Assembly: GCA_028687335.1 (NCBI GenBank)
Contig: JAQUAI010000008.1
Coordinates: 1-64,000 of the forward strand
Length of the DNA: 64,000 nucleotides
Reading direction: 5' to 3'
From: Gallionella sp.
GTDB taxonomy: Bacteria; Pseudomonadota; Gammaproteobacteria; Burkholderiales; Gallionellaceae
Positions within the stretch are counted from its first letter, which is position 1. Each line of letters begins with the position of its first letter. Under the pieces are notes generated by a model. The model was not told the DNA's origin. It worked only from the letters and a program-made list of their open reading frames with translations, and did no database searches. Below, piece after piece: positions 28,558 through 52,605 of the stretch. A program made the translations under genes and the position numbers.

Positions 28558-29919
28558 TTACTTTAAGTTTTGTAGTTTGATTTCTTGCATTGGAATGCCC
28601 ATCAAACCAGTTGCGGCCATGCTCTTTTCTGATTTAAAGATCACCGCATCGTGTATCCAATGATGCTGTTCATGTTTTTCCGGAGTGCCATTGGCAATAG
28701 CAACTGTGATGCTGTAGTTGCCAGGAGGTAGCAATGGCATATAAAAAACAAAGTCGGCTTGAAGATGCTCCCCCTTTTTGCAATGTACGCAATCTTTATA
28801 AAAAGTGAGATAAGTGTTATCGCCAAACAGTTCTTGCCCTAAACGATTTTTTACGTAAAAACCAATTATAGGGGCATTAAGATCTTGAGCAGCTTGGATC
28901 ATTATTCTCAAAATAACCTTTTCGCCGCCAACAATCCAAGCAAGCGCATGTGCATTTTCATCTAAAAGGCGAACATCGATGATTTGTGCGCCGCCCTTGC
29001 CAAAGGATGCCGCGTCAGGATCGAATTTGAAAATTTGTAAGTCGTTACGTAATTCGCTGGTATTAATGAATTCTAGCCGCTGATCTTTAACATGTGTGTT
29101 TGCAGCGGGTTGTTGTTTGAGCTCTTTGAGCTTGGTTGTGCTGCTGCTACCTTGCTGCGCTTCGTAGAACGCCTCCAAATACAATTCGCATACATCTTTG
29201 GGTGTTCCTTCTTGGATCACCTGACCTTTTTCGAGCCACACCGCGTAAGTGCACATACTTTTTATGCTGGCAGTGTCATGGCTCACAAATAATACGGTTC
29301 CGGTTTTCATGAAGTCACGCAAAAAGCGCATGCATTTTTGGCTGAAAAAAGCATCTCCAACCGCCAGTGCCTCGTCAATAATTAAAATATCCGCATCCAC
29401 ATGCGCAATTACTGCAAAAGCCAGACGCACCATCATTCCACTGGAATATGTTTTGACTGGTTGCTCAATAAAATCGCCTATGTCGGCAAAGGCTGCAATA
29501 TTATCGAAGCGCGCATCAATTTGTTCGTTACTTAAGCCAAGTACCGACGCATTCATATATACGTTTTCACGCCCGGTGAATTCTGGATTGAAGCCTGACC
29601 CAAGCTCTAGCAATGCCGCAATGCGGCCATTGGTTTGAATGCTGCCGCCTGTGGGATGTAGTGTGCCGCAAATCATTTGCAGTAAGGTGGACTTGCCTGA
29701 GCCATTACGTCCAATGATGCCAACCGTTTCGCCTTTCTTAATTTCAAACGAAATATCTTTTAGCGCCCAGAATTCTCTAAAATATTGCTTAGATGTTTTT
29801 CCAACAATGCGTCGTAAGCGAGGGTAAACAGATTGTTTAAGCCGATCTTGCGGTTTGTCGTAGACGTGGTAGCACTTTGAAAGGTTGCTAACTTTGATCG
29901 CTATATCGTTAGAGCACAT
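28558..29919 (-). CDS. wzt: ABC transporter ATP-binding protein with C-terminal glycan-binding domain
   Basis: A cytoplasmic ATPase of about 453 residues. GIIGRNGSGKSTLLQMI is Walker A, VKTYSSGMMVRLAF the signature motif, DILIIDEALAVGD Walker B, and SHDTASI the switch His. After residue 250 an extra roughly 190-residue domain resembles the Wzt C-terminal domain, which recognises the modified end of a polysaccharide. I start at the ATG at 29919, which has AAGGG seven bases upstream; the track used a TTG two codons earlier. It overlaps wzm by 11 bp. It drives export of an undecaprenyl-linked polysaccharide. Confidence 0.93.
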   Translation of the reverse strand: MCSNDIAIKVSNLSKCYHVYDKPQDRLKQSVYPRLRRIVGKTSKQYFREFWALKDISFEIKKGETVGIIGRNGSGKSTLLQMICGTLHPTGGSIQTNGRIAALLELGSGFNPEFTGRENVYMNASVLGLSNEQIDARFDNIAAFADIGDFIEQPVKTYSSGMMVRLAFAVIAHVDADILIIDEALAVGDAFFSQKCMRFLRDFMKTGTVLFVSHDTASIKSMCTYAVWLEKGQVIQEGTPKDVCELYLEAFYEAQQGSSSTTKLKELKQQPAANTHVKDQRLEFINTSELRNDLQIFKFDPDAASFGKGGAQIIDVRLLDENAHALAWIVGGEKVILRIMIQAAQDLNAPIIGFYVKNRLGQELFGDNTYLTFYKDCVHCKKGEHLQADFVFYMPLLPPGNYSITVAIANGTPEKHEQHHWIHDAVIFKSEKSMAATGLMGIPMQEIKLQNLK

Positions 29920-30739
29920 CAGCAAACCCTTTTCTGGTTTTTTGAAACCACCAATAACCAGCCCATGCTACTGTCACGCTGACAACAGCGTAGATTCCTA
30001 AGCCTGTCCAATCGGGCATTTTGCCAAAAATCATAACTGCACGACTTTGCTCAATTACAAAAGTGAGAGGATTGAGCATGAGCCATATTTGAAATTTTTC
30101 TGGCAGCGAGGAGATGGGATAAAACACCGGCGAAACAAACATGAGGACGGTGGTAAAAATACCGATGGTTTGTCCGACATCGCGAACGAATACGCCGACA
30201 GAAGCTAAAAACCAAGCTACTCCGAGTGTTGCAAACAGCAGGGGTAGTATCACGAGTGGAAAGAGTATCGCGGTCCACGCCAAAGTGCCGTTGATAAGCA
30301 GAATGGCTGCCAACAACACGACTAAGCTAATAAGTGAGTGAAACAGCGCTGCTCCCATACCAATGACTGGCAAAATTTCGAGCGGGAAGATCACCTTTTT
30401 GACATAGTTAACATTTGACAAAATAAGTCCCGGCGCACGATTGGTCATTTCTGCGAATAAGCCATATACGATCATGCCAATGAATAAAACGATGGCGAAG
30501 TTGGTTTGACTTTCATCGCCAATTCCCCATTTCGCCTTGAATACCACGCTGAACACAAAGGTGTACACCACCAGCATCAGGATGGGGTTGAAGAATGACC
30601 ATGCCAAACCCATAACTGAACCGCGATACCGTCCAACGACTTCGCGTCGAGTCATTTGCTTAATCAGGTCGCGGTGTTGCCAAAGGCTTCTTGCTAATGA
30701 TTTAAGCGATGATGAATGGTTTGCGTGGGGATTAATCAT
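29909..30739 (-). CDS. wzm: ABC-2 type polysaccharide export permease
   Basis: An inner-membrane permease of 276 residues with six hydrophobic segments and the family's amphipathic N terminus (LIKQMTRREVVGRYRGSVMG, then LAWSFFNPILMLVVYTFVFS). It pairs with the Wzt gene that overlaps its 3' end. Together they would translocate a completed polysaccharide across the inner membrane. The start codon lies within the last codons of the broken rfbC, 10 bp downstream of a GAGG sequence, so it now depends on translation signals located in that remnant. Confidence 0.93.
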   Translation of the reverse strand: MINPHANHSSSLKSLARSLWQHRDLIKQMTRREVVGRYRGSVMGLAWSFFNPILMLVVYTFVFSVVFKAKWGIGDESQTNFAIVLFIGMIVYGLFAEMTNRAPGLILSNVNYVKKVIFPLEILPVIGMGAALFHSLISLVVLLAAILLINGTLAWTAILFPLVILPLLFATLGVAWFLASVGVFVRDVGQTIGIFTTVLMFVSPVFYPISSLPEKFQIWLMLNPLTFVIEQSRAVMIFGKMPDWTGLGIYAVVSVTVAWAGYWWFQKTRKGFADVL

Positions 30740-30998
30740 TCAATAGATGCCTCGTTGCAAATCTGCCTTGCACAGCACTCACTAACTTACCCTGCGCTTG
30801 TTTGATCTGGTAATGCAACCCGCACAGTACATGGCGGGCCGACTTGGAGCGGTTATCTTGAATGAAGTGGAAGGTGATACCGGTCAGTTCGGCAAATCGC
30901 TTGGCGTTAAAACTTTTGCAAAAGAAGCCACGTGTAGCACCAAACATTTTAGGTGCGACAACGGGGGAGGAGGGGATGTCGGTTGGGATAGTGTTCAT
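30732..30998 (-). pseudogene. rfbC: Truncated rfbC (dTDP-4-dehydrorhamnose 3,5-epimerase)
   Basis: Eighty-eight codons that follow the start of RfbC: MNTIPTDIPSSPVV, GATRGFFCKSFNAKRFAE, HFIQDNRSKSA and LHYQIKQAQGKLVSAVQG. The protein then leaves the family at VQGR, where VQGEVFDVAVD is expected, and stops after ten unrelated residues, so about half the enzyme (normal length about 180) is missing, including the second conserved His. The catalytic loop also has CGLHYQ for RGLHYQ. It begins 3 bp after the rfbA tail, the normal rml gene order, and its end runs into the wzm start. Confidence 0.85.
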
Positions 30999-31001
30999 TT
31001 C

Positions 31002-31073
31002 TTAGCTCTTTTCTTGTAGCAGGCGTTGCAGGTATTGGCAGTAGCCGTTTTTTGGCGATGGTGCGATGAACTA
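31002..31073 (-). pseudogene. rfbA: 3' tail of rfbA (glucose-1-phosphate thymidylyltransferase)
   Basis: Reading the minus strand into the TAA at 31002-31004 gives PSPKNGYCQYLQRLLQEKS, the C-terminal end of RfbA/RmlA (typically KNGYGQYLLRLL). A stop in frame (TAG, 31071-31073) precedes FIAPSPKNG, and no further RfbA sequence is recognisable upstream. It is too short to be on the ORF track. Its place directly in front of the rfbC fragment is what makes the assignment credible: the pair is the left-over junction of a former rml operon. Confidence 0.7.
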
Positions 31074-31209
31074 TTTGAGTTGGTCGGTGTTATGTAACGG
31101 TGTCCGATGACTTTTACATGGAGTCACCCCTCTACAAAGGCTGCGGATTCTACACAGGATGGCATTCGAAAAGAATAGACCGAAATGCATAGACCTACCG
31201 AGCAAATCT
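31074..31209. other. Non-coding junction beside the rfbA remnant
   Basis: About 135 bp between the rfbA tail and the stop of the reductase gene. I find no reading frame that continues RfbA and no clear terminator. The stretch TGTCCGATGACTTTTACATGG followed by GAGTCACCCC looks like neither flanking gene and could be the end of a lost mobile element, but no inverted partner or target duplication is visible. Confidence 0.3.
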
Positions 31210-41326: not shown

Positions 41327-42382
41327 TCAAACGAACATCTCCCATTGGACTGCAGTCCCCCTCATCACATCTTTCTTCAGTGTTTTACCAAGCACCACAT
41401 CCAAATATTTGGTCTGCAACCCTAGGCCTGGACGTATCGCACGCACATTGTCCTTGGTAAGAACATCGCCAGCCTTTAAGTCTTTTACAACATAAAGAGA
41501 ACGGCGGAATTGGAGTGATTTCTGCTCTACCGCCGTTGTGCCATAGCTTACCTTTCCCAGTGCCTGCCATGCCCTAACAGATTCAGCGATTAATTGTCCC
41601 ATCTCGCTGGGTTCCATCGAAAAAGTGCTATCTACTCCACCGTCCTTACGATTGAGGGTGAAGTGTTTCTCAATCACCGTTGCACCCAAGGCAATACTCG
41701 CCACCGAGACGCCCACGCCCATCGTATGATCAGACAATCCAACTTCGCAATCGAACAGTTCACGCAGGTGTGGGATAGTTAGGATATTGGTATTTTCTGC
41801 AGTAGCCGGATAGGTACTTGTGCATTTCAGCAGGATTAAATCCTTGCAGCCCGCCTCGCGCGCGGCGCGCACAGTCTCGTCGAGCTCGGCGACAGTCGCC
41901 ATGCCGGTGGAGATGATCAACGGCTTGCCGGTGGCTGCAACGCGCCTGATTAGCGGCAAGTCGGTATTTTCAAACGAGGCAATCTTGTAGCACGGCACAT
42001 CCAGGCTTTCCAAAAAATCTACGGACGTATCGTCGAACGGCGTGCTGAAAGCAATGATGCCCAGCTCGCGCGCTCTTTTAAAGATCGGCTCGTGCCATTC
42101 CCACGGCGTATAGGCCTCGCCATAGAGCTTGTAGAGCGAGGTGCCCGCCCATAAGCTCTTCGGATCGCTGATGTGAAATTCTCTTTCATCCAGATCCAGC
42201 GTCATCGTGTCCGGCGTGTAAGTCTGTATCTTCAGCGCATGTGCACCGGTCTTGGCCGCCGCTTCCACGATCTCCAGTGCCCGCTCAAGCGACTGGTTGT
42301 GATTGCCTGACATCTCGGCAATCACAAATGGTGGGTGGTCACGCCCAATCAACCGGTCTGCAATTTTTATTACGCTACTCAT
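41327..42382 (-). CDS. pseI: Pseudaminic acid synthase
   Basis: A 351-residue NeuB-family enzyme condensing 2,4-diacetamido-2,4,6-trideoxy-L-altrose with phosphoenolpyruvate. FVIAEMSGNHNQSLERAL, GAHALKIQTYTPDTMTLD and PWEWHEPIFKRARELG are the PseI version of the family motifs (NeuB and LegI differ there), followed by GLSDHTMGVGVSVASIALGA and a C-terminal antifreeze-like SAF domain (RSLYVVKDLKAGDVLT). It follows the pseG-pseH fusion by 3 bp. The rest of the pathway is encoded upstream in the same run. Confidence 0.96.
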   Translation of the reverse strand: MSSVIKIADRLIGRDHPPFVIAEMSGNHNQSLERALEIVEAAAKTGAHALKIQTYTPDTMTLDLDEREFHISDPKSLWAGTSLYKLYGEAYTPWEWHEPIFKRARELGIIAFSTPFDDTSVDFLESLDVPCYKIASFENTDLPLIRRVAATGKPLIISTGMATVAELDETVRAAREAGCKDLILLKCTSTYPATAENTNILTIPHLRELFDCEVGLSDHTMGVGVSVASIALGATVIEKHFTLNRKDGGVDSTFSMEPSEMGQLIAESVRAWQALGKVSYGTTAVEQKSLQFRRSLYVVKDLKAGDVLTKDNVRAIRPGLGLQTKYLDVVLGKTLKKDVMRGTAVQWEMFV

Positions 42383-42385
42383 TTC

Positions 42386-43891
42386 TCACAGCTCCTTCAA
42401 ATAATGCATCGATTCGAGTCGGTAATCTGCACCTATGAACAAACGTTGCGAAGCTGTATTCGCACCCAGCACTTCAGCTCGAATCGATTTAATGTCCGCA
42501 CGATGTGTCTTGAGCCATTCTTCCGCTCTTAGCAACAAGTTGCGGCCTTGTCCTTTGAAGCCGCCTTCCGGTACCAGATAGATCGACACCAGCGCAGTTT
42601 CGCCCTCTTGGTCAAAGCGCACCACTCCAACGGGTTCGTTATCGATCTCTCCGATCAACAGCATTCGGTTTTTGTCTGCCTGCACTTTGGCAAACCAGAC
42701 TTGATGATCGGCCCACGCAATCGGCGTAGAGTTCTTCGACACCGCCCTGATCGTTTGATGATTGCGCCATTCAAACAACTTTGGCGAGTCGCTCTCATTG
42801 GCTATTCTGATCTCAATATCGTTTGCACCCAAAGCGGTTGCAACACGGTTGACCCCAAGTCCGTCCACTTCCTGCATGGCCGTTCTTGAGATCAACTTTC
42901 GCAGCGGTTCATTTTCCAATATCGAACCGATGTGACGCCGGAGCGCACTGGTCAGGTCGCCGCCGCCAGATAGCGAATAGATCAAACCCTGTTCCGCCGC
43001 ATCCGCGATCTGCTGGCGCTGATTGTCCGCCACGCAGACACTCAATGCCGGCAAGCCCAGACAGCAGCGCTCCCACATTGCAGAACCGCCAGCCCCGATC
43101 GCCAGATCAGCGCGCACCATCAGTTCAGCCATACGTTTAGTTTGTACATGGCAATGATATCCATGCAACTTGCATAGCGCCTCGATCTGTTCCCGGCAAG
43201 GATGCTGCATACCGATGACAACATCCACCTGCCATGCCCCGGCTTCTTGCACGGCCAATGCTTCGATGGCGCGCCCCGTGTAGTTGTCGGCATCCATTCC
43301 GCCAAAGAACACCAGGATCCGTTTTACCGGCCCGCTACGCTGCCTTGCCTGTTTGCGCGATTCGCGGAACTCGTCGCGCAGCAGCGCATAGCGGGGGCCC
43401 AGCAGTTGGCGACACTGCGCTGGCACTTTTCCGGCATAGCGCGCCTGCATGTCTGCATAAAGATTCTGATCCAGCAGCACATCGCAATCATGATGCCGGT
43501 CGGCGATGTCATCTATGGCCATGATGCGCTCGGCAAACGGGCGCAAAGCGCTTTCCCAGCGCACATCCAGCGCATAATGGTCGACAACCAGCCAATCCCA
43601 TTTGCGGCCTGACAGCGCTTGTTTAGTCGCCTGCGCATCCTGTTCCTGGCTTGCGTTCAGCCAATGCGAATGGGCCAAGTCGCCTGCCGGATAAGGGGTG
43701 GCATCGCTTTCCAGTGACGCAAGTTCCATCCCTTTTGTTTTGAGCATGTCGCGCAAATATTTCGGCAGGTCGCGACTGACAAAACGTATTCTTACGCCGT
43801 GGTGCTGCAATGCTTCCGCCAACGTCATACAACGCATGAAGTGCCCCGTGCCGATCCGGCTTGTCGCATCGGTGCGGAAGGCCACGTTCAT
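42386..43891 (-). CDS. pseG-pseH: Bifunctional PseG hydrolase - PseH acetyltransferase fusion
   Basis: A 501-residue fusion. Residues 1 to about 340 are PseG, a GT-B fold UDP-sugar hydrolase releasing the trideoxy-altrose (MNVAFRTDATSRIGTGHFMR with the catalytic His, ILVFFGGMDADNYT, LAIGAGGSAMWERCCLGLP). Residues about 345-501 are a GNAT domain equivalent to PseH, the 4-N-acetyltransferase (IRIANESDSPKLFEWRN, LYLVPEGGFKGQGRNLLLRA-like coenzyme A loop). PseH acts before PseG, so the fusion joins consecutive steps. The track's 605-residue version runs into hisF; the ATG at 43891 overlapping the hisF stop is the true start. Confidence 0.92.
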   Translation of the reverse strand: MNVAFRTDATSRIGTGHFMRCMTLAEALQHHGVRIRFVSRDLPKYLRDMLKTKGMELASLESDATPYPAGDLAHSHWLNASQEQDAQATKQALSGRKWDWLVVDHYALDVRWESALRPFAERIMAIDDIADRHHDCDVLLDQNLYADMQARYAGKVPAQCRQLLGPRYALLRDEFRESRKQARQRSGPVKRILVFFGGMDADNYTGRAIEALAVQEAGAWQVDVVIGMQHPCREQIEALCKLHGYHCHVQTKRMAELMVRADLAIGAGGSAMWERCCLGLPALSVCVADNQRQQIADAAEQGLIYSLSGGGDLTSALRRHIGSILENEPLRKLISRTAMQEVDGLGVNRVATALGANDIEIRIANESDSPKLFEWRNHQTIRAVSKNSTPIAWADHQVWFAKVQADKNRMLLIGEIDNEPVGVVRFDQEGETALVSIYLVPEGGFKGQGRNLLLRAEEWLKTHRADIKSIRAEVLGANTASQRLFIGADYRLESMHYLKEL

Positions 43892-44670
43892 TTTGCAGCG
43901 CTGCTCACAAAATTCCGGCGCACGGGTATGCCGGCCTCTTGCATGGCATTTTTTGCTCCGGCGGGCGTTTGCTCGGTGAAGTGGAAGATGCTGGCAGCGG
44001 CGACCGCCGATGCTCCCGCGTTCTTTACCACGTCGATCATGTGCGCATAATTCCCGGCACCGCCCGAGGCGATAACCGGAATATCCACCGCCTTTGTGAC
44101 TTGCTCGACCAGTTCCAGATCGTAGCCCAGCATCGTGCCGTCCCGGTCTATCGAAGTCAGCAGTATCTCTCCCGCCCCGCGCCCCGCCATTTCCTTGGCC
44201 CACTCAACCGGCGTCTTGGCCGTGTCGACCGTAGCGGCGAGGCTGTAGCAACCATAGCTTCCGTCCGCATGTCTCTTCGCATCTATGCTGACGACCACGC
44301 ACTGCGCACCGAAACGCTTTGCCGCCGCCTCAACCAGATCAGGATTGGCATAAGCAGCGGTGTTGATGGCCACCTTGTCTGCGCCGGCATGCAGCAGGGA
44401 AACGATCTGCTGTAGATTCGTTATGCCGCCGCCGACGGTGAACGGAACCGAACATTCTTCGGAAAAATCACTGACCGAATCGTGGTCCGGCTGGTTATCT
44501 TCGATAGACGCTGTAATGTCGACCAGAAACAGCTCATCCACATCGCGCGAGTTATATACCTTGATAGCAGGAAGAACCGGCCCCACGCGGCGCCAACTAT
44601 CAAAGCCGACTCCTTTAACCAAACCAAAATCCTTCCAAAGTAAAGTTGGTATAACGCGAATTTTTAGCAT
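43888..44670 (-). CDS. hisF: HisF-like cyclase subunit for sugar amidation (WbuZ type)
   Basis: A 260-residue TIM-barrel protein related to imidazole glycerol phosphate synthase HisF: RVIPTLLWKDFGLVKGV, FLVDITASIEDNQPD, PFTVGGGITNL and VIASGGAGNYAHMIDVV. The first active-site segment reads LLWKDFGLVKG, where biosynthetic HisF has LD..G.VVKG, a change seen in the glycan-associated copies. It is encoded between a hisH-like gene (7-bp overlap) and pseG, with the amidotransferase further upstream, so it probably supplies or channels ammonia for acetamidino formation rather than making histidine. Confidence 0.88.
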   Translation of the reverse strand: MLKIRVIPTLLWKDFGLVKGVGFDSWRRVGPVLPAIKVYNSRDVDELFLVDITASIEDNQPDHDSVSDFSEECSVPFTVGGGITNLQQIVSLLHAGADKVAINTAAYANPDLVEAAAKRFGAQCVVVSIDAKRHADGSYGCYSLAATVDTAKTPVEWAKEMAGRGAGEILLTSIDRDGTMLGYDLELVEQVTKAVDIPVIASGGAGNYAHMIDVVKNAGASAVAAASIFHFTEQTPAGAKNAMQEAGIPVRRNFVSSAAK

Positions 44671-45287
44671 GGCACGTAATTCATAAAATTCCTAAGCAGT
44701 TGTCTTCCTGCCTTTGAGCTTTTCTCGGGATGACACTGACATCCGAAAACGTTGCCACTACGCACGACTGCCGTCACATCGCAGTCGTATGAAGTGGTAG
44801 CGATCAAGTGCTCCTGGCTTTCCGGAACAAACGCAAAGCTGTGCACAAAATAGAAATCCGAAAGATCCGGTATACCGTCAAACAACACATCGGCCTTGCG
44901 ATAACTCACGTCGTTCCAGCCGACGTGGGGGATGCGCAACTTGCAACCTATCGCATCCAGCCGCCGGACTTTGCCGGGAATGAAACCCAGCCCGTTGGTT
45001 TCGCCGCCTTCATGCCCGCTTGTTGCAAGCATTTGCATACCGAGACAGATACCGAGCAAGGGTTTGCCCTGCTGGATTACCACTTCGTGCAGCGCAGATG
45101 CCCAACCCGAGCCAGTCAGGCATTCCATTCCTTCGGTAAATGCTCCAACGCCGGGCAGGACGATCCGATTAGCATCGTATAGCGCCGCTGGATGGTTAGC
45201 GACGGTGACTTCGGCACCGATATCCTCGAATGCTCTGCGAACCGAGGCCAAGTTACCCATGCCATAGTTGACGACGGCTATCTTCAT
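44664..45287 (-). CDS. hisH: HisH-like glutamine amidotransferase subunit (WbuY type)
   Basis: A 207-residue class I glutamine amidotransferase. GICLGMQMLA holds the nucleophilic Cys and CQCHPEKSSKAG the catalytic His-x-Glu, completing the triad; IVLPGVGAFTEGM provides the oxyanion strand. It makes ammonia from glutamine and passes it to the HisF-like barrel. Both ends overlap neighbours (4 bp with the amidotransferase, 7 bp with hisF), so the three proteins are made together. This arrangement is the known sugar amidation cassette, not a histidine operon. Confidence 0.92.
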   Translation of the reverse strand: MKIAVVNYGMGNLASVRRAFEDIGAEVTVANHPAALYDANRIVLPGVGAFTEGMECLTGSGWASALHEVVIQQGKPLLGICLGMQMLATSGHEGGETNGLGFIPGKVRRLDAIGCKLRIPHVGWNDVSYRKADVLFDGIPDLSDFYFVHSFAFVPESQEHLIATTSYDCDVTAVVRSGNVFGCQCHPEKSSKAGRQLLRNFMNYVPC

Positions 45288-46432
45288 ACGTTGTCGTAGT
45301 TCAGCTTTTCCAGATTGCCGTGCTTGTCTTTGATCAGGTTGCCCGACGAATCACGCTTGAATATCTTCTTGTTGGTGAAGCGGTCACACACCTTGATGAA
45401 CTCATCCACTGACATATCAAGTGGAGCAAGGATGTCTTCCAACGGCTTGCCCAAATATGACCAAGGGAATTTTCCATCACGCGCTTTCACAACCTCCAAA
45501 GCGTCCTGCCGCGTGATTCGGTCTCGACGCACATGCAAGCAAGCAATGTCTGTTGTACGAGAAAAGCCGAATTTTAGGAACTTGAAATAATCGTGAATTC
45601 CAGTTTGGCAATTATCCAAATTCTCATAGTTAACCATCGACCCTTCAACAGGCTGGTCGTAAGTTACGAACCCGTTTGCTTGTGCAATTAGCGCATTCGA
45701 TAGACCATCCCAAGGCAGGTAGTGCCCGAGGAAAAGTCCCGTAACACCCACGCGCTGCAACTCTTCATCGCTTGGGTACTGATAAGGCAACAGATGCCTT
45801 GGCTCGATGCCATAGGTCTCGGAAAGATCGGAAACTCGCATACCAAGCAAGCCGCCAAATTCCTCCAACCAGCGACGGGTCAGAACGTTGTTGTCTGCCG
45901 CCGCCGCAGGTCCGCCATACTCATTTTGAGAGTTCTCACCCCACACAAGAAGCGGCACAGTGAACTGAACTGCAGCCCGGACAGGGATAGTGAATATTCC
46001 AACATGCTCAGGCCATGAGATGTCGCCTACTTCTGTCAATCCGATACGGTTCAGCTTCGCGCGAACAAGCGGATTGGGCGAAAATTCAACATGGTCAACA
46101 CCAAGCCGCTTCAGATTCTCAATATTCGTCCGCCCAATATCCGATAAATCACAAGTGTGCGAAGTCACGCATAAGGGATTCAGTCCAAGCTGCAACATAC
46201 GTATGACTTGGTACGTACTATCCTTGCCGCCACTTACCGGCACGATGCAATCCCAGTTGCTGCCATTTCTACGATGTTTAGCTAAGACATCAAGAAGTTC
46301 AGTTTTGCGCTGACCCCAGTCGATGTCTTTGCGCTTCTCAATTGATCGACATGCATTACAGACACCTTCATTGTCTATATGAAGGTCCGGCTTGGTGTGC
46401 GGCATCACACAACGTACGCAGTATTTCAGCAT
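45284..46432 (-). CDS. pseA: N-acetyl sugar amidotransferase (PseA/WbpG family)
   Basis: A 382-residue ATP-pyrophosphatase. The N terminus has zinc-binding cysteines (YCVRCVMPHTKPDLHIDNEG then VCNACRS) and CIVPVSGGKDSTYQVIRML is the PP-loop that adenylates the acetamido group. Members turn a sugar acetamido group into an acetamidino group using ammonia from HisH/HisF, as WbpG does and as PseA does for Pse5Ac7Am in Campylobacter. Lying among pse genes, its substrate is likely pseudaminic acid. The stop overlaps the hisH start (ATGA). Confidence 0.92.
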   Translation of the reverse strand: MLKYCVRCVMPHTKPDLHIDNEGVCNACRSIEKRKDIDWGQRKTELLDVLAKHRRNGSNWDCIVPVSGGKDSTYQVIRMLQLGLNPLCVTSHTCDLSDIGRTNIENLKRLGVDHVEFSPNPLVRAKLNRIGLTEVGDISWPEHVGIFTIPVRAAVQFTVPLLVWGENSQNEYGGPAAAADNNVLTRRWLEEFGGLLGMRVSDLSETYGIEPRHLLPYQYPSDEELQRVGVTGLFLGHYLPWDGLSNALIAQANGFVTYDQPVEGSMVNYENLDNCQTGIHDYFKFLKFGFSRTTDIACLHVRRDRITRQDALEVVKARDGKFPWSYLGKPLEDILAPLDMSVDEFIKVCDRFTNKKIFKRDSSGNLIKDKHGNLEKLNYDNV

Positions 46433-46433
46433 G

Positions 46434-47069
46434 TTACGACCTCTTTTCCATCAAAAACCAAGTGATATCGTCTTGCGGAAACGCCGGATCGCGGCGATAT
46501 GAGAAGCCATAGTCAATCAAACGCAAATCGGGATACTTTTCCAGCATCTCACCAGCAAAGTCACGCTTAAAAAGTCGATCTGTATGGCCTCGGTAGAGAA
46601 TAGCAACCGGCGAAGGGTCGTAATACTCGCACACAAGAATGAATCTCTTGGAAGCTTGGTATAACTTCTCGTATACAGTATTCAGCATCTCAGGATTGAT
46701 ATGAATCAAAACGCCCTTAATCAAGGAAAGCTCCACCTTGTCGGTTACCGGATAATCAAATATCGAACCGAGATACACATTCTTTTCACCAATAAGGCCA
46801 CCGAGCAATTTGGCTGCATCAGGATTAATTTCAGCAGCCCTTAATTCAACACCGGGGTACAGCAGCTGGAGCGCTTTTAAGTTCATGCCGATATTGGCAC
46901 CAAGCTCAAGACAAGAGGCAACTCTTCCTGCTTGGTTCAATGCTTTTGTGAAAAAGTTCAGGTTGGAAGCTAATAGTTGGTTGCTATCGTTTCGACCAAT
47001 ATATTCACTGCCGAATGCACCCGCCCAAAATGCTTCTTGAGGAGTCGCATAGTTATTGTCGGTTGCCAT
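46434..47069 (-). CDS. Pseudaminic acid biosynthesis-associated methylase
   Basis: A 211-residue class I SAM methyltransferase: ATPQEAFWAGAFGSEYIGRN is the distinctive N terminus of the pse-associated methylase family, SCLELGANIGMNLKAL the SAM-binding loop and LSLIKGVLIHINPEML the catalytic-face segment. It would methylate pseudaminic acid or a derivative. It overlaps pseF by 17 bp and ends one base before the pseA start, placing methylation in the same program as amidination. The modified position is unknown. Confidence 0.9.
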   Translation of the reverse strand: MATDNNYATPQEAFWAGAFGSEYIGRNDSNQLLASNLNFFTKALNQAGRVASCLELGANIGMNLKALQLLYPGVELRAAEINPDAAKLLGGLIGEKNVYLGSIFDYPVTDKVELSLIKGVLIHINPEMLNTVYEKLYQASKRFILVCEYYDPSPVAILYRGHTDRLFKRDFAGEMLEKYPDLRLIDYGFSYRRDPAFPQDDITWFLMEKRS

Positions 47070-47760
47070 TTTTTACATCTCCCAGTTGGTTAAATAGTAA
47101 TTCCGCTCTAATCCAGTCATCCCAATTGTCTATGTCCTGCACCCGCCATCTTGGAAGCTTTACTGGCGAAGAATGTCGCTCAAATATTTTCTTGCCTTCC
47201 GTCCAAGCCCTAGGGCGCCCCCAGTAAAACTGCCCTGCATCATGGAATGCAACCGGCAAGTCTTGTGAGCGCGTTGCAAAATGTTCTGGGAAGAACATTT
47301 CGATGCCGCCGTCTGCAGTTTGTTGGAATGCACGGAAGATCGGTGCGGCGAATTCCGTGACTGAAAATACATAGTCCCAACTGCCCGATTCCAGAACATT
47401 CAAGCCTTTTTTCAGATCTTCCACCTGTATAAATGGCGCCGTGGCGTAGATACAGCAAACCGCATCCGGCTTAAGGCCTTCATTCAGCGCCCATTGCGTC
47501 GCATGCGCAATCACTTCGGTCGTTCCTGCGAAATCGTTTGCAAGCTCCGGCGGTCGCACGAAAGGTGTCTCTGCGCCCCACATCCTTGCCACTTCGGCGA
47601 TTTCCACATCATCCGTCGATACAATAATTCGATCAAACAAGCCGCTCTCTCTAGCTGCCGTAATCGACCATGCAATCATAGGCCTGCCGCAAAATGGCTT
47701 GATGTTCTTACGCGGGATGCGCTTACTACCACCTCGCGCGGGAATGACTGCAATTTTCAT
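47053..47760 (-). CDS. pseF: Pseudaminic acid cytidylyltransferase
   Basis: A 235-residue CMP-nonulosonate synthetase. IAVIPARGGSKRIPRKNIKPF is the CTP-binding signature, DRIIVSTDDVEIAEVA and CCIYATAPFI follow as in PseF/NeuA. It activates pseudaminic acid as CMP-Pse, the donor for the transferase. The stop/start with pseC overlaps by 4 bp (ATGA). Assignment to PseF rather than NeuA rests on the pseB/C/G/I neighbours and on the family-specific KRIPRKNIKPFCGRPM segment. Confidence 0.95.
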   Translation of the reverse strand: MKIAVIPARGGSKRIPRKNIKPFCGRPMIAWSITAARESGLFDRIIVSTDDVEIAEVARMWGAETPFVRPPELANDFAGTTEVIAHATQWALNEGLKPDAVCCIYATAPFIQVEDLKKGLNVLESGSWDYVFSVTEFAAPIFRAFQQTADGGIEMFFPEHFATRSQDLPVAFHDAGQFYWGRPRAWTEGKKIFERHSSPVKLPRWRVQDIDNWDDWIRAELLFNQLGDVKNGNRQ

Positions 47761-48926
47761 TTCGATGTAGCCACTCGCAGTATTTTAATCACTCGATCTT
47801 GCTCTGCTACTGTGAGGTTTGGATACATCGGTAAGCTGATCGCTTCGGCGTAATACTGCTCGCCTTCTGGGCAGTGTCCCACCTCGAATCCCAAGCCTTC
47901 ATAGTACGGCTGAAGATGCACAGGAATGTAATGCAGATTCACGCCAATACCCGCCTCACGCAGAGCTTCAAATACTTGACGATGCGTCTTGCCAATCTGC
48001 TCAAGCTTCAATCGAACAACATAGAGATGCAAACCCGAATAGCCATCTGGATGTTGCCAAGGCGCGCTGACATTCAGTCCATCCAACAACTGGTCGTAAC
48101 GTTTTGCAATCACGTGTCGTTTGCTCACGAACTCATCCAGACGTTGCATCTGACTCAAGCCTAAGGCAGCTTGCAAGTCCGTCATGCGGTAGTTGTAGCC
48201 CAAGTCAATCTGCTGGTAGTACCAAGGACCATCTGGTACATGCGTCATTTCGTTCACATCACGCGTGATGCCGTGACTGCGCAATAATTGCATGCTCTTG
48301 GCCAATTGAGCATTCTTGGTCATCGCCATGCCGCCTTCGGCAGTGGTGATGATCTTGACCGGATGGAAGCTAAAGATGGTGATGTCGCTGTAGTGGCAGT
48401 TACCAATCGGCTCGTTACGATACTTGCCACCAATGGCATGTGATGCATCTTCGATGATCTTGAAGCCATATTGTTGGCCTAGCGCATGGATGGCGACCAT
48501 GTCGCAAGGCTGACCACACAAATGCACGGGAATAACGACTTTAGGCAATTTCCCATGCCGTTTTGCATAAGCTAATTTATCGCTCAATCGCTCAACACTC
48601 ATGTTGTATGTTTTTGGATCGATATCAACGAAGTCGATATCGGCACCGCAATACAAAGCGCAGTTTGCACTGGCCACAAAGGTGATCGGCGTAGTCCAAA
48701 CCATATCGCCTTCGCCCACCCCCAATGCCAAACATGCCACATGTAATGCGCTGGTCGCGCTGTTCATGGCAACCGCATGGGGCACACCGCAATAATCTGC
48801 GATGCTCTTTTCAAAAGCAGGGACAGCAGGGCCTTGCGTCAAATAATCTGAACGCAGCACATCCACAACCGCTTGAATGTCTGCCTCAGATATGTCCTGC
48901 CTTCCGTAAGGAATCATTGCACTCAT
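47757..48926 (-). CDS. pseC: UDP-4-amino-4,6-dideoxy-N-acetyl-beta-L-altrosamine transaminase
   Basis: A 389-residue PLP aminotransferase of the DegT/DnrJ group. It begins MIPYGRQDISEADIQAVVDVL, has TTPITFVASANCALYCGAD, ITIFSFHPVKIITTAEGG with the Schiff-base Lys in HPVK, and LGYNYRMTDLQAALG. It performs the second step of pseudaminic acid synthesis. The ATG at 48926 overlaps the pseB stop as ATGA; an internal ATG at 48917 gives the usual N terminus MIPYG and may be the functional one. Distinct in sequence from the PglE-like protein at 33053. Confidence 0.95.
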   Translation of the reverse strand: MSAMIPYGRQDISEADIQAVVDVLRSDYLTQGPAVPAFEKSIADYCGVPHAVAMNSATSALHVACLALGVGEGDMVWTTPITFVASANCALYCGADIDFVDIDPKTYNMSVERLSDKLAYAKRHGKLPKVVIPVHLCGQPCDMVAIHALGQQYGFKIIEDASHAIGGKYRNEPIGNCHYSDITIFSFHPVKIITTAEGGMAMTKNAQLAKSMQLLRSHGITRDVNEMTHVPDGPWYYQQIDLGYNYRMTDLQAALGLSQMQRLDEFVSKRHVIAKRYDQLLDGLNVSAPWQHPDGYSGLHLYVVRLKLEQIGKTHRQVFEALREAGIGVNLHYIPVHLQPYYEGLGFEVGHCPEGEQYYAEAISLPMYPNLTVAEQDRVIKILRVATSK

Positions 48927-49921
48927 ATCTTGCCAACTTTTTCACGGTTAGCGTCGATCCAAGCCTTCAATTGCTCGATGCTCATCCATTCTTTGTTGTT
49001 GTCTGAGCTGTAGTTGAAATCTTCCGCCACTTTCTTGCCATCCTTGATACGGAGTGGGTCACTACTCCAATGGTGGATAGCAGGAAGGATCTTGAAATGT
49101 TCTTGATATTCATAAGTGTGCAACGCATCCTCCGCGCCAATCATTTGTTCATGCAGCTTTTCACCAGGACGAATACCCACCACCTCTTGTTTCGCGCCGG
49201 GCACGGATGCAGATGCCACGTCAGTAATGACCATGGATGGGATCTTCTTCACATAGATCTCACCACCAACCATGTCTTCAAAGGCATGCCACACCAGTTC
49301 AACGCCTTCTTCTAGTGTGATCATGAAGCGAGTCATACGTGGATCGGTAATCGGCAACACTCCCTTATCCGCAATCGAAAGGAAGAACGGGATGACAGAG
49401 CCACGAGAACCCATGACATTGCCATAACGCACCACACCAAAACGCGTGTCATGCGATCCCGCATAGGAGTTGCCCGCCACGAAGAGTTTGTCTGATGCCA
49501 GCTTGGTCGCGCCATACAAGTTTGCTGGGCTGCTAGCTTTGTCAGTAGAAAGTGCGACGACACGTTTCACACCACGATCAATACAAGCATCGATCAGATT
49601 CATCGCTCCATTGATGTTGGTTTTTACACATTCAAATGGATTGTATTCGGCAGTAGGAACGATCTTCGTCGCAGCCGCATGAACTACAAAATCAATACCG
49701 TCCAGCGCTCTGGAGAGTCGTTCTTTATCGCGCACATCACCGATGAAAAAACGAACACGCGGATCATTGACGTATTGCTTTGCCATTTCCCATTGCTTCA
49801 TCTCATCACGCGAATAGATAACCAAGCGACGAGGATTGTATTTAGCCAAAGTCATTGGCACAAAGGTGTGGCCAAAAGACCCCGTTCCCCCAGTGATCAG
49901 TATTGATTGATTGGAAAGCAT
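48923..49921 (-). CDS. pseB: UDP-GlcNAc 4,6-dehydratase (inverting)
   Basis: A soluble 332-residue SDR lacking the membrane domain of PglF. ILITGGTGSFGHTFVPMTL is the cofactor site, VALSTDKASSPANLYGATK the active site with Lys pairs, and EIYVKKIPSMVITDVA the family C-terminal segment. It starts the pseudaminic acid pathway by inverting C-5 and forming UDP-2-acetamido-2,6-dideoxy-L-arabino-hexos-4-ulose. It is the first enzyme gene after the regulator, 13 bp downstream, so the regulator promoter probably also drives this pathway. Confidence 0.96.
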   Translation of the reverse strand: MLSNQSILITGGTGSFGHTFVPMTLAKYNPRRLVIYSRDEMKQWEMAKQYVNDPRVRFFIGDVRDKERLSRALDGIDFVVHAAATKIVPTAEYNPFECVKTNINGAMNLIDACIDRGVKRVVALSTDKASSPANLYGATKLASDKLFVAGNSYAGSHDTRFGVVRYGNVMGSRGSVIPFFLSIADKGVLPITDPRMTRFMITLEEGVELVWHAFEDMVGGEIYVKKIPSMVITDVASASVPGAKQEVVGIRPGEKLHEQMIGAEDALHTYEYQEHFKILPAIHHWSSDPLRIKDGKKVAEDFNYSSDNNKEWMSIEQLKAWIDANREKVGKI

Positions 49922-49934
49922 AGTTTACGAACCT

Positions 49935-50258
49935 TTAGTAATGTGTGGTTTCTTTGCGCAATTCTTCTATTTCAGCCTTCAAACGCTCATATTCCTGCAC
50001 TTTTCTCTGCAAGAACTCGACCGTAATACGTGCTTTTTCCTCAACACCTCTAGGCGTTAACAAGTAGGCATACGCCAACTTATTATCGCTGTTACGGAAA
50101 TTATTGATTTTGATGCTGCCTTTTTCGACCAGCGCATTCAGGCAAAAATTGACTTTACCAAGGCTCACGCCCAGTCGTTTCGCCAAATCTCGTTGGGAAA
50201 TACTGGGGTTTTCTTCCAGCGTTTTAAGCAGGCCGTAGTGGGTGGTTTCGTCTAACAT
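49935..50258 (-). CDS. MarR-like EPS-associated transcriptional regulator
   Basis: A 107-residue winged helix-turn-helix protein: [20 protein letters not shown] is the [21 protein letters not shown] the recognition helix and wing, and the C-terminal [18 protein letters not shown] a coiled coil for dimerisation. It matches the MarR family EPS-associated regulators that head polysaccharide operons. It is the promoter-proximal gene of the long minus-strand run, 13 bp before pseB. A perfect palindrome at the predicted transcription start suggests it represses or tunes its own operon. Ligand unknown. Confidence 0.88.
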
Positions 50259-50266
50259 TTAGAGTG

Positions 50267-50283
50267 TGTTCAACGATTGAACA
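50267..50283. promoter_or_regulatory. Perfect 17-bp palindrome, candidate operator of the EPS regulator
   Basis: TGTTCAACGATTGAACA: two 7-bp arms around a CGA centre, with no mismatch. It begins 9 bp upstream of the regulator ATG and covers the predicted transcription start of the promoter at 50290-50319, a classic position for autorepression by a dimeric winged-HTH protein. It also lies between the divergent waaC gene and the regulator, so it could influence both. Confidence 0.6.
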
Positions 50284-50289
50284 GCGCGC

Positions 50290-50319
50290 ATTACAACAGC
50301 CGCAGGCGGATGGTGTCAA
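50290..50319 (-). promoter_or_regulatory. Predicted sigma70 promoter of the regulator-pse operon
   Basis: On the minus strand TTGACA (50319-50314, perfect -35) is followed by an 18-bp spacer and TGTAAT (50295-50290, -10 with one mismatch). Transcription would begin near 50283, giving a leader of about 25 nt before the regulator ATG. It is the strongest promoter-like sequence I see in the glycan region and the likely start of the 40-kb run. Confidence 0.6.
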
Positions 50320-50381
50320 GCATGAAAAGCCGCTCGTGTATCATGGCGACCTTGTTCGTCGCCTCACTTTATTCCATGCAA

Positions 50382-51341
50382 ATGGCAACCCGCATCGTTT
50401 TGATTAAAACCTCGTCGCTGGGCGATGTGTTGCACAACCTCCCGGTTGTATCCGACATCCGCAGGCACCTGCCCGACGCGCATATCGACTGGGTGGTTGA
50501 AGAAAATTTTGCGGCGCTACCCGCCTTACACCCCGATGTCGAACACATCATCCCTGTCGCCATCCGGCGTTGGCGTAAATCCTGGTGGCCGGCACGTTCG
50601 GAAATTCGTGGCATCTACGCCCAACTTCGCAAGGCATCCTATGATGTCGCCCTTGATACACAAGGCTTGCTAAAAAGTGCAGTGATCGCCCGTTGCAGCA
50701 ATGCCCCGCGCTACGGTTACGCTTGGAACAGTGCACGCGAACCGCTGGCCAGCCTGTTTTACCAGCACACCTTCACCGTCGCCAAAACACAGCATGCCGT
50801 CGAGCGCAATCGCCAACTCGCTGCCGCCGCGCTTGGTTATACCCTGCACGGCGCTGCCGACTACGGCATCCGCGCACCGGAACTGACGCTTCCTTGGCTG
50901 CCCAGCTCACCTTATGTCACCCTACTGCATGCCACCAGCCGTGACGATAAATTGTGGGAAGAAAAAAACTGGACTGAACTGGGAAAGCGCCTGCACCAAG
51001 CTGGTTTGCGCAGCGTGTTACCGTGGGGCAGCGAAACAGAAAAGTCCCGTGCCGAACGCTTGCAAGCCATCATTCCCGATAGCATCCTCGCCCCGCGCCT
51101 TGACCTCAATCAGGCCGCCGCCTTGCTCGGTAAGTCGCAGGCCGTGATTGGCGTGGATACCGGATTGAGCCACCTCGCAGCTGCCTTGTCCGTGCCTACT
51201 ATCGGCATCTACACCGCAACCGACCCAGGACTTACCGGACTGTATGCCGGCGCGAATGCCGTCAATCTGGGCGGAAAACATACCTCGCCGTCGGTCGATG
51301 CTGTCGTCGCGACACTGACACAACTCGGTGTGTATGCCTAA
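50382..51341 (+). CDS. waaC: LPS heptosyltransferase I
   Basis: A 319-residue GT9 glycosyltransferase adding the first L-glycero-D-manno-heptose to Kdo2-lipid A on the cytoplasmic face. RIVLIKTSSLGDVLHNLPV is the N-terminal signature (with the catalytic Asp in LGD), VALDTQGLLKSAVIAR and VIGVDTGLSHLAAAL the ADP-heptose site. I start it at the ATG at 50382 (MATRIVLIK) because the extra 35 residues of the track version are not conserved; an ATG two codons earlier is possible. It overlaps waaA by 8 bp. It faces away from the pse operon. Confidence 0.93.
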   Translation: MATRIVLIKTSSLGDVLHNLPVVSDIRRHLPDAHIDWVVEENFAALPALHPDVEHIIPVAIRRWRKSWWPARSEIRGIYAQLRKASYDVALDTQGLLKSAVIARCSNAPRYGYAWNSAREPLASLFYQHTFTVAKTQHAVERNRQLAAAALGYTLHGAADYGIRAPELTLPWLPSSPYVTLLHATSRDDKLWEEKNWTELGKRLHQAGLRSVLPWGSETEKSRAERLQAIIPDSILAPRLDLNQAAALLGKSQAVIGVDTGLSHLAAALSVPTIGIYTATDPGLTGLYAGANAVNLGGKHTSPSVDAVVATLTQLGVYA

Positions 51342-52605
51342 GCCGCGCGTTTTCTACACACTGGGGCTATGGCTACTGCTGCCCTACATCGGCTTTCACC
51401 TTCTCTGGCGCGCACGCAAGCAGCCAGAATACTTGCGCCACATCGGCGAGCGTTTTGGCTTCTATGCAACACACAGTGCTAAACCTATCATTTGGTTACA
51501 CACCGTCTCTGTGGGTGAAACGCGTGCAGCCGCTTCGCTGGTGCAGCGTTTACGCGAGCAATATCCCGATCACCAGATTTTACTCACGCACACCACACCG
51601 ACCGGTCTCGCCGCCAGCGAGCAGCTTTATGGCGATAATGTGATGCGCGTCTATCTGCCTTATGACTACCCTTTCGCCATGCGCCACTTCTTGCGCCATT
51701 TCAAACCCAGCGTCGGCGTACTTCTGGAAACCGAAATCTGGTTCAACCTCATCCACGCCTGCCACACCACTGCCACACCGTTACTTCTCCTCAACGCGAG
51801 ACTTTCGAAAAAATCCGCCCTAGGTTATGCGCGCTTTCCCGCTTTAACACGCCATGCCCTTAGCGAATTCACTGCCATCGCCGCACAAACCGAAGCCGAC
51901 GCACAACGTCTAAACTCGCTGGGTGCAAATACGGTAAATGTAATGGGTAATCTCAAATTCGATATTGAGCCGCCCGCAGCGATGCTTGAACTAGCCCCCC
52001 AACTGCGAGCACAGTTCGGTACGCAACGGCCAGTATTTCTGGCTGCGAGCACACGCGAAGGCGAAGAGCCACTCATCCTTGATGCGCTGCAAACATTAAA
52101 TCTGCCCGACCTACTCACCGTCATCGTGCCGCGTCATCCGCAACGCTTCGACGCGGTTGCCAACCTTATCCAGCAACGCGGATTTCGACTGCAACGTCGT
52201 AGTGCCAATAACGCCATCGCGCCCACAACCCAAATCGTACTAGGCGACAGCATGGGCGAAATGTTCGCCTACTACGCCGCTTGCGATCTCACCTTCATCG
52301 GCGGCAGCTTGCTGCCCCTAGGCGGACAAAACCTGATCGAAGCCTGCGCGCTTGGCAAGCCCGTCCTGATCGGACCGCACACCTACAATTTCGCCCAAGC
52401 CACCGAGCTGGCGGTCGCCTGCGGTGCCGCCCTGCAAATTCAGCGCGCCGACGAATTAGGCAAAATTTTGGGAACGTTATTAACAGACGAGCCGCGAATG
52501 CGGCTCATGGGACAAGCGGGACTCATGTTCGTACAAGACAATCGCGGCGCAACTGAACGAGCCGTCGCGTTAATCGCTCAACAGATCAATACAAAGCCTG
52601 ATTGA
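51334..52605 (+). CDS. waaA: 3-deoxy-D-manno-octulosonic acid (Kdo) transferase
   Basis: A 423-residue GT30 enzyme that adds Kdo to lipid IVA. One N-terminal membrane helix (VFYTLGLWLLLPYIGFHLLW), IWLHTVSVGETRAA with the catalytic Glu, LLLNARLSKKSALGYARFP, and GGSLLPLGGQNLIEACALGKP for the CMP-Kdo site. The ATG at 51334 overlaps the waaC stop. Its last 20 bp overlap the 3' end of the convergent tolC gene. Together with waaC it makes the inner core to which the O-antigen built by this window could be attached. Confidence 0.95.
   Translation: MPKPRVFYTLGLWLLLPYIGFHLLWRARKQPEYLRHIGERFGFYATHSAKPIIWLHTVSVGETRAAASLVQRLREQYPDHQILLTHTTPTGLAASEQLYGDNVMRVYLPYDYPFAMRHFLRHFKPSVGVLLETEIWFNLIHACHTTATPLLLLNARLSKKSALGYARFPALTRHALSEFTAIAAQTEADAQRLNSLGANTVNVMGNLKFDIEPPAAMLELAPQLRAQFGTQRPVFLAASTREGEEPLILDALQTLNLPDLLTVIVPRHPQRFDAVANLIQQRGFRLQRRSANNAIAPTTQIVLGDSMGEMFAYYAACDLTFIGGSLLPLGGQNLIEACALGKPVLIGPHTYNFAQATELAVACGAALQIQRADELGKILGTLLTDEPRMRLMGQAGLMFVQDNRGATERAVALIAQQINTKPD

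Follow-up and report, generated by a model that had tools for sequence, protein, structure and literature searches.

Genes and promoter elements at the locus

The 64-kb stretch of Gallionella DNA analyzed here (the window) contains a short minus-strand gene (49935 to 50258) encoding a 107-amino-acid protein that is a clear member of the NCBIfam family TIGR04176, MarR_EPS (162.9 bits against a cutoff of 88, covering model positions 2 to 103 of 105), in agreement with its original description as an EPS-associated MarR-like gene. The family model covers the protein only. Downstream, the ORF list and family matches define a same-strand run of mostly glycan genes about 38.7 kb long (11231 to 49921, minus strand), so the 40-kb glycan run of the original prediction is real as a gene series. 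This run, the presumed target of the regulator, places pseudaminic acid genes and other glycan genes directly behind the MarR_EPS gene: it includes family matches to PseB (48923 to 49921), PseC (47757 to 48926), PseF (47053 to 47760), a Pse-associated methylase (46434 to 47069), WbuX (45284 to 46432), HisH (44664 to 45287), PseG/PseH (42386 to 44203), PseI (41327 to 42382), and an ABC exporter ATPase (28558 to 29925), all on the minus strand, along with transferases. It is almost gapless, the sole gap of more than about 100 bp being one of about 470 bp (30740 to 31209), and may be read as a single transcript. Within the PseG/PseH feature, PseG (105 to 397) and PseH (469 to 599) share one open frame, an apparent fusion whose real start probably lies further along than the listed GTG.

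On the other side of the regulator, genes encoding the heptosyltransferase I WaaC (50379 to 51341, plus strand; TIGR02193, 382.6 bits) and then WaaA (51328 to 52605, plus strand) are transcribed divergently. A terminator-like stem-loop on the plus strand lies just before waaC (50345 to 50363), and with a shuffle mean of 0.5 may be due to chance.

The sequence from 50267 to 50283 holds the palindrome TGTTCAACGATTGAACA with zero mismatches, and the only other matches in the window are three with three mismatches each. Read on the minus strand as TGTTCAATCGTTGAACA, this element is a predicted operator, based on the exact match and on its conservation upstream of orthologues, and it contains the conserved core GTTCA-N5-TGAAC (50268 to 50282). 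Above it on the same strand are a −35 box, TTGACA (50314 to 50319), also found above the operator in many orthologues, and, after an 18-bp spacer, a −10 box, TGTAAT (50290 to 50295), which is preceded by TGT in the manner of extended −10 promoters. The perfect 17-bp palindrome below a TTGACA-18-TGTAAT promoter that had been proposed is therefore present in the sequence as described. A promoter scan of the window did not include this promoter among its hits, because the scan demands an A at −10 position 2. The end of the −10 box is 7 bp from the GTTCA core, the commonest value among orthologues, and a 7- to 8-nucleotide spacing from the −10 box would put the transcription start at 50282 to 50283 (minus strand), at the upstream edge of the operator. 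The palindrome and the ATG of the MarR_EPS gene are separated by 8 bp.

Any perfect 7-3-7 palindrome is expected by chance about four times per 64 kb (64,000/4^7), and the palindrome by itself is therefore weak evidence and not significant. Its significance comes instead from its placement at a promoter and from its conservation. A chance origin, for which that expected number is the argument, is already refuted by conservation across dozens of families, and we assign it a negligible probability.

A short winged-helix regulator

Pfam matches of the window protein are to HTH_24 (50.6 bits) and MarR (26.3 bits), identifying it as a winged helix-turn-helix protein, and its closest named relatives are mostly from Gallionellaceae. 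The predicted structure (pLDDT of 89.4) consists of a winged helix followed by one 38-residue C-terminal helix (residues 68 to 105). The best fold matches of this model are MarR proteins, led in Foldseek by HcaR (3k0l; TM score of 0.68), and no close solved structure was found for the MarR_EPS protein. Typical MarR proteins have an N-terminal dimerization helix. The window protein is shorter than these, and its model has no helix ahead of the DNA-binding domain, beginning instead with the first helix of that domain. No separate sensor domain was seen in its 107 residues.

Conservation upstream of MarR_EPS genes

Alignment of regions upstream of orthologous genes was the first check named in the original prediction, and it returned a conserved motif in both collections of genes described here; the lack of conservation that would have spoken against the prediction was not seen. 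The first comprised 113 nonredundant orthologues drawn from whole genomes and a genome collection, and exact GTTCA-N5-TGAAC sites were present within 300 bp upstream of 101 of these, with the Gallionellaceae members sharing ancestry and thus not being independent. The remaining twelve comprise three loci with one-mismatch sites (L029, L051, and L059), one whose spacer is 4 bp (L010), four in which the site overlaps the called start or lies just past it (L057, L099, L107, and L108), and four whose site is exact but ends 287 to 668 bp upstream, separated from the gene by a long leader or by another gene (L055, L049, L033, and L122). As background, 452 kb of sequence from these loci contained six exact copies of the pattern, of which at least three are upstream operator sites.

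Across 72 diverse loci, each of the ten core positions carries 1.8 to 2.0 bits (nine are invariant, and the tenth is 97% G), and the spacer and outer flanks carry little information. One flanking base per side is biased toward Y or R, giving a conserved unit of YGTTCA-N5-TGAACR. The 7-bp arms of the original prediction thus exist in the window but do not hold as a conserved unit, since the innermost arm bases vary. Measured from the end of the −10 box, the site mostly lies 2 to 12 bp away, with a mode of 7, whereas its spacing from the start codon varies between −10 and 668 bp, which ties the element to the promoter. The site remains at the operon promoter where RfaH or another gene leads the operon.

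Control of waaC was considered as the main role of the operator and set aside, because waaC is rarely a neighbor where the operator is still kept: with flanks of 1.5 to 3 kb, just 17 of the 113 orthologue loci had a WaaC match upstream. It may be a second target at this locus, one that conservation does not support.

A second collection, fetched once the motif had been defined, took in more distantly related members, some in other classes and some on plasmids. Sites were found in 33 of the 34 members with usable upstream DNA, including Alphaproteobacteria and an Aliarcobacter plasmid. Of these sites, 29 were exact, 17 with a 5-bp spacer and 12 with a 4-bp spacer, and the script tally listed one-mismatch sites at five further loci (four with a 4-bp spacer and one with a 5-bp spacer). 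That tally covered 37 loci with three scored as "none"; leaving out L259 and L260, which are remote MarR-like hits without a site that were counted as negatives rather than as family members, it gives 34 of 35, and 33 of 34 is the conservative figure, allowing for one doubtful one-mismatch call. The remaining negative, L244, is a clear family member with no site upstream. Three members of this set (L235 to L237) seem to belong to species already represented by L099, L107, and L108 and are possible repeats. On the Aliarcobacter butzleri plasmid (L269), the annotated MarR_EPS gene neighbors a predicted tet(H) and is preceded, at a distance of 36 bp, by an operator with one mismatch.

The 4-bp spacer class was first recognized on this later set and so was not predicted beforehand; it occurs in Alphaproteobacteria and in one genome of the window's own order (L010). 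On a tree of the regulators, this class needs only 2 changes, versus 15.7 when the labels are shuffled (0 of 500). The L010 regulator groups with alphaproteobacterial ones, with modest SH-aLRT values of 80 to 86 at the relevant forks of this short-protein tree, and joint transfer of a regulator with its site may have occurred.

Genome-wide copies of the motif

A scan for further copies, also named in the original prediction, indicated essentially a single target. In the window's genome, which is 88.5% complete, the pattern occurs twice, once as the operator and once inside a coding sequence that we read as an RpoH-like sigma factor. Genomes carrying the family have 36 extra copies, of which 28 fall within coding sequence and the others score no higher than 14.0 on a promoter scale where most operator loci score 14 to 17. 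In genomes lacking the family, 24 copies were examined, and most of them are also in coding sequence; one (L218) scores 15.1, with no gene start within 150 bp. Genome-wide motif counts did not tell family-bearing genomes from the others, and only promoter placement did so. Tandem GTTCA-N5-TGAAC arrays, apparently unrelated to MarR_EPS, were seen at L149 (186 to 289, four copies) and L148 (1802 to 1904, three copies).

Sister regulators and PAPS synthase fusions

The site is also found with two other regulator architectures. A sister family of about 210 amino acids matches TIGR04176 below the cutoff over its first 90 residues, and its C-terminal domain has no Pfam match. The operator was present at 29 of 29 sister loci, with the −10 box abutting the site at 21. 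In most sister genes the ATG falls within the operator (GTTCANNNATGAAC), immediately below the −10 box, and leaderless mRNAs are therefore predicted for them. Among sister loci L136 to L167, the −10 box directly above this embedded start codon is TATAGT. Four sister-type loci outside the window's class (L255, L256, L258, and L271) have two operators 27 to 28 bp apart upstream of the regulator, with a TTGAC −35-like box immediately preceding the second.

These placements bear on whether the inverted repeat could instead act at the RNA level, folding into a hairpin within the 5′ leader. In favor of this, most of the repeat would be transcribed in the window, yet the predicted leader fold lacks the palindrome hairpin (z = −1.31), and where the −10 box abuts the site in the 21 sister loci, one arm should stay untranscribed. 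On these two grounds the hairpin, which we regard as very improbable, was rejected.

The third architecture joins a winged helix to a bifunctional sulfate adenylyltransferase/APS kinase. Such fusions occur in seven genomes from a single family (f229) and in G149, three detected by profile and the others read from sequence, and the operator lies upstream with a 4-bp spacer in f229 and a 5-bp spacer in G149. The MarR_EPS-like/PAPS synthase fusions are at L147 (4498 to 6658) and, in f229, at L247 to L252 and L254, each with an operator upstream. They suggest a tie to sulfate activation.

The association with three architectures, stand-alone MarR_EPS, the sister family of about 210 amino acids, and the bifunctional ATP sulfurylase/APS kinase fusion, is relevant to whether the palindrome could be the site of a different, unlinked regulator controlling the same operons. 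Many regulators use short inverted repeats, and the tie between this palindrome and MarR_EPS is drawn from sequence comparisons. However, no copy placed at a promoter was found outside the loci of MarR_EPS, the sisters, or the fusions, the site goes with all three architectures, and its spacer follows the regulator clade, all of which make an unlinked regulator quite improbable. Somewhat more broadly, it seems reasonably probable that the GTTCA half-site defines a phylum-wide module for control of surface-polysaccharide operons, with three regulator architectures, a spacer that covaries with clade, leaderless sister mRNAs, and first codons (Met-Asn) set by the operator.

A proposed autorepressor of glycan synthesis

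Among the related regulator genes examined across Proteobacteria, the motif is near universal at the promoter, and the palindrome is very probably bound by its own regulator. We consider it highly likely that it is the operator of the MarR_EPS protein encoded directly downstream, acting as a local autorepressor of its own gene and of the glycan operon. A conserved inverted repeat is anchored on the regulator's own promoter, as in autoregulatory operators; its sequence, promoter anchoring, conservation, near-uniqueness in the genome, and a geometry that follows the regulator clade are established here. We infer binding by MarR_EPS, dimerization, repression over activation, and read-through into the long run. 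A MarR_EPS dimer would bind the two 5-bp half-sites, GTTCA and TGAAC, at the transcription start; the half-site centers are 10 bp apart, or one helical turn, as expected for a dimer on one face of the DNA. The bound dimer would block initiation by RNA polymerase, repressing both the regulator gene and the downstream glycan operon until some signal relieved repression. An annotated family member in Acidithiobacillus caldus is induced by salt (PMC10599003), a report that says nothing on the site, and no other expression reports on the family were found in the literature searched.

The closest parallels include MarR-family repressors with autoregulatory operators, for instance YvmB/PchR of Bacillus subtilis, which has a 14-bp palindrome (PMC4992311). 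Both systems place a palindrome on the promoter of a winged-helix regulator, with autorepression proposed here, but the half-sites and spacing differ, and YvmB has several targets whereas MarR_EPS here has essentially one. The literature searched held nothing direct on TIGR04176 function or on the motif as an operator, consistent with the original view that binding sites of this regulator family are poorly described. The predicted operator is new, for an uncharacterized family, and autoregulation is a kind of regulation already known. The original prediction was right but understated, as the predicted operator is conserved across the family and beyond. An uncharacterized, widely annotated regulator family thereby gains a precise predicted DNA target of 17 bp, and target prediction becomes possible in any genome carrying MarR_EPS.

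Relation to RfaH and elongation control

Some MarR-type proteins activate transcription, and MarR_EPS might bind the site as an activator or serve only as an elongation roadblock. YvmB activates yisI (PMC4992311), and RfaH ops elements in some orthologue operons indicate that elongation control exists there. Against both roles, nearly every locus has the site at the −10 box or immediately below it, a position where a bound protein would be expected to block initiation, and we consider them unlikely. Autorepression, as proposed above, could operate alongside RfaH in some lineages, linking promoter control to elongation control of polysaccharide operons. One RfaH cluster has been associated with an HTH regulator (Wang et al., PMC7593976). 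The window itself differs from RfaH/ops systems, having no exact match to the ops-like sequence GGCGGTAGCGT, and only one NusG-domain gene was found in its genome (88.5% complete). Elsewhere the resemblance is closer: the ops-like sequence occurs in 12 of 113 MarR_EPS leaders, compared with 8 copies across 1.01 Mb of other sequence. It is also present at 21 of 29 sister loci, counted per locus rather than by position relative to the gene. In several loci where the RfaH gene comes first, the operator lies upstream of RfaH.
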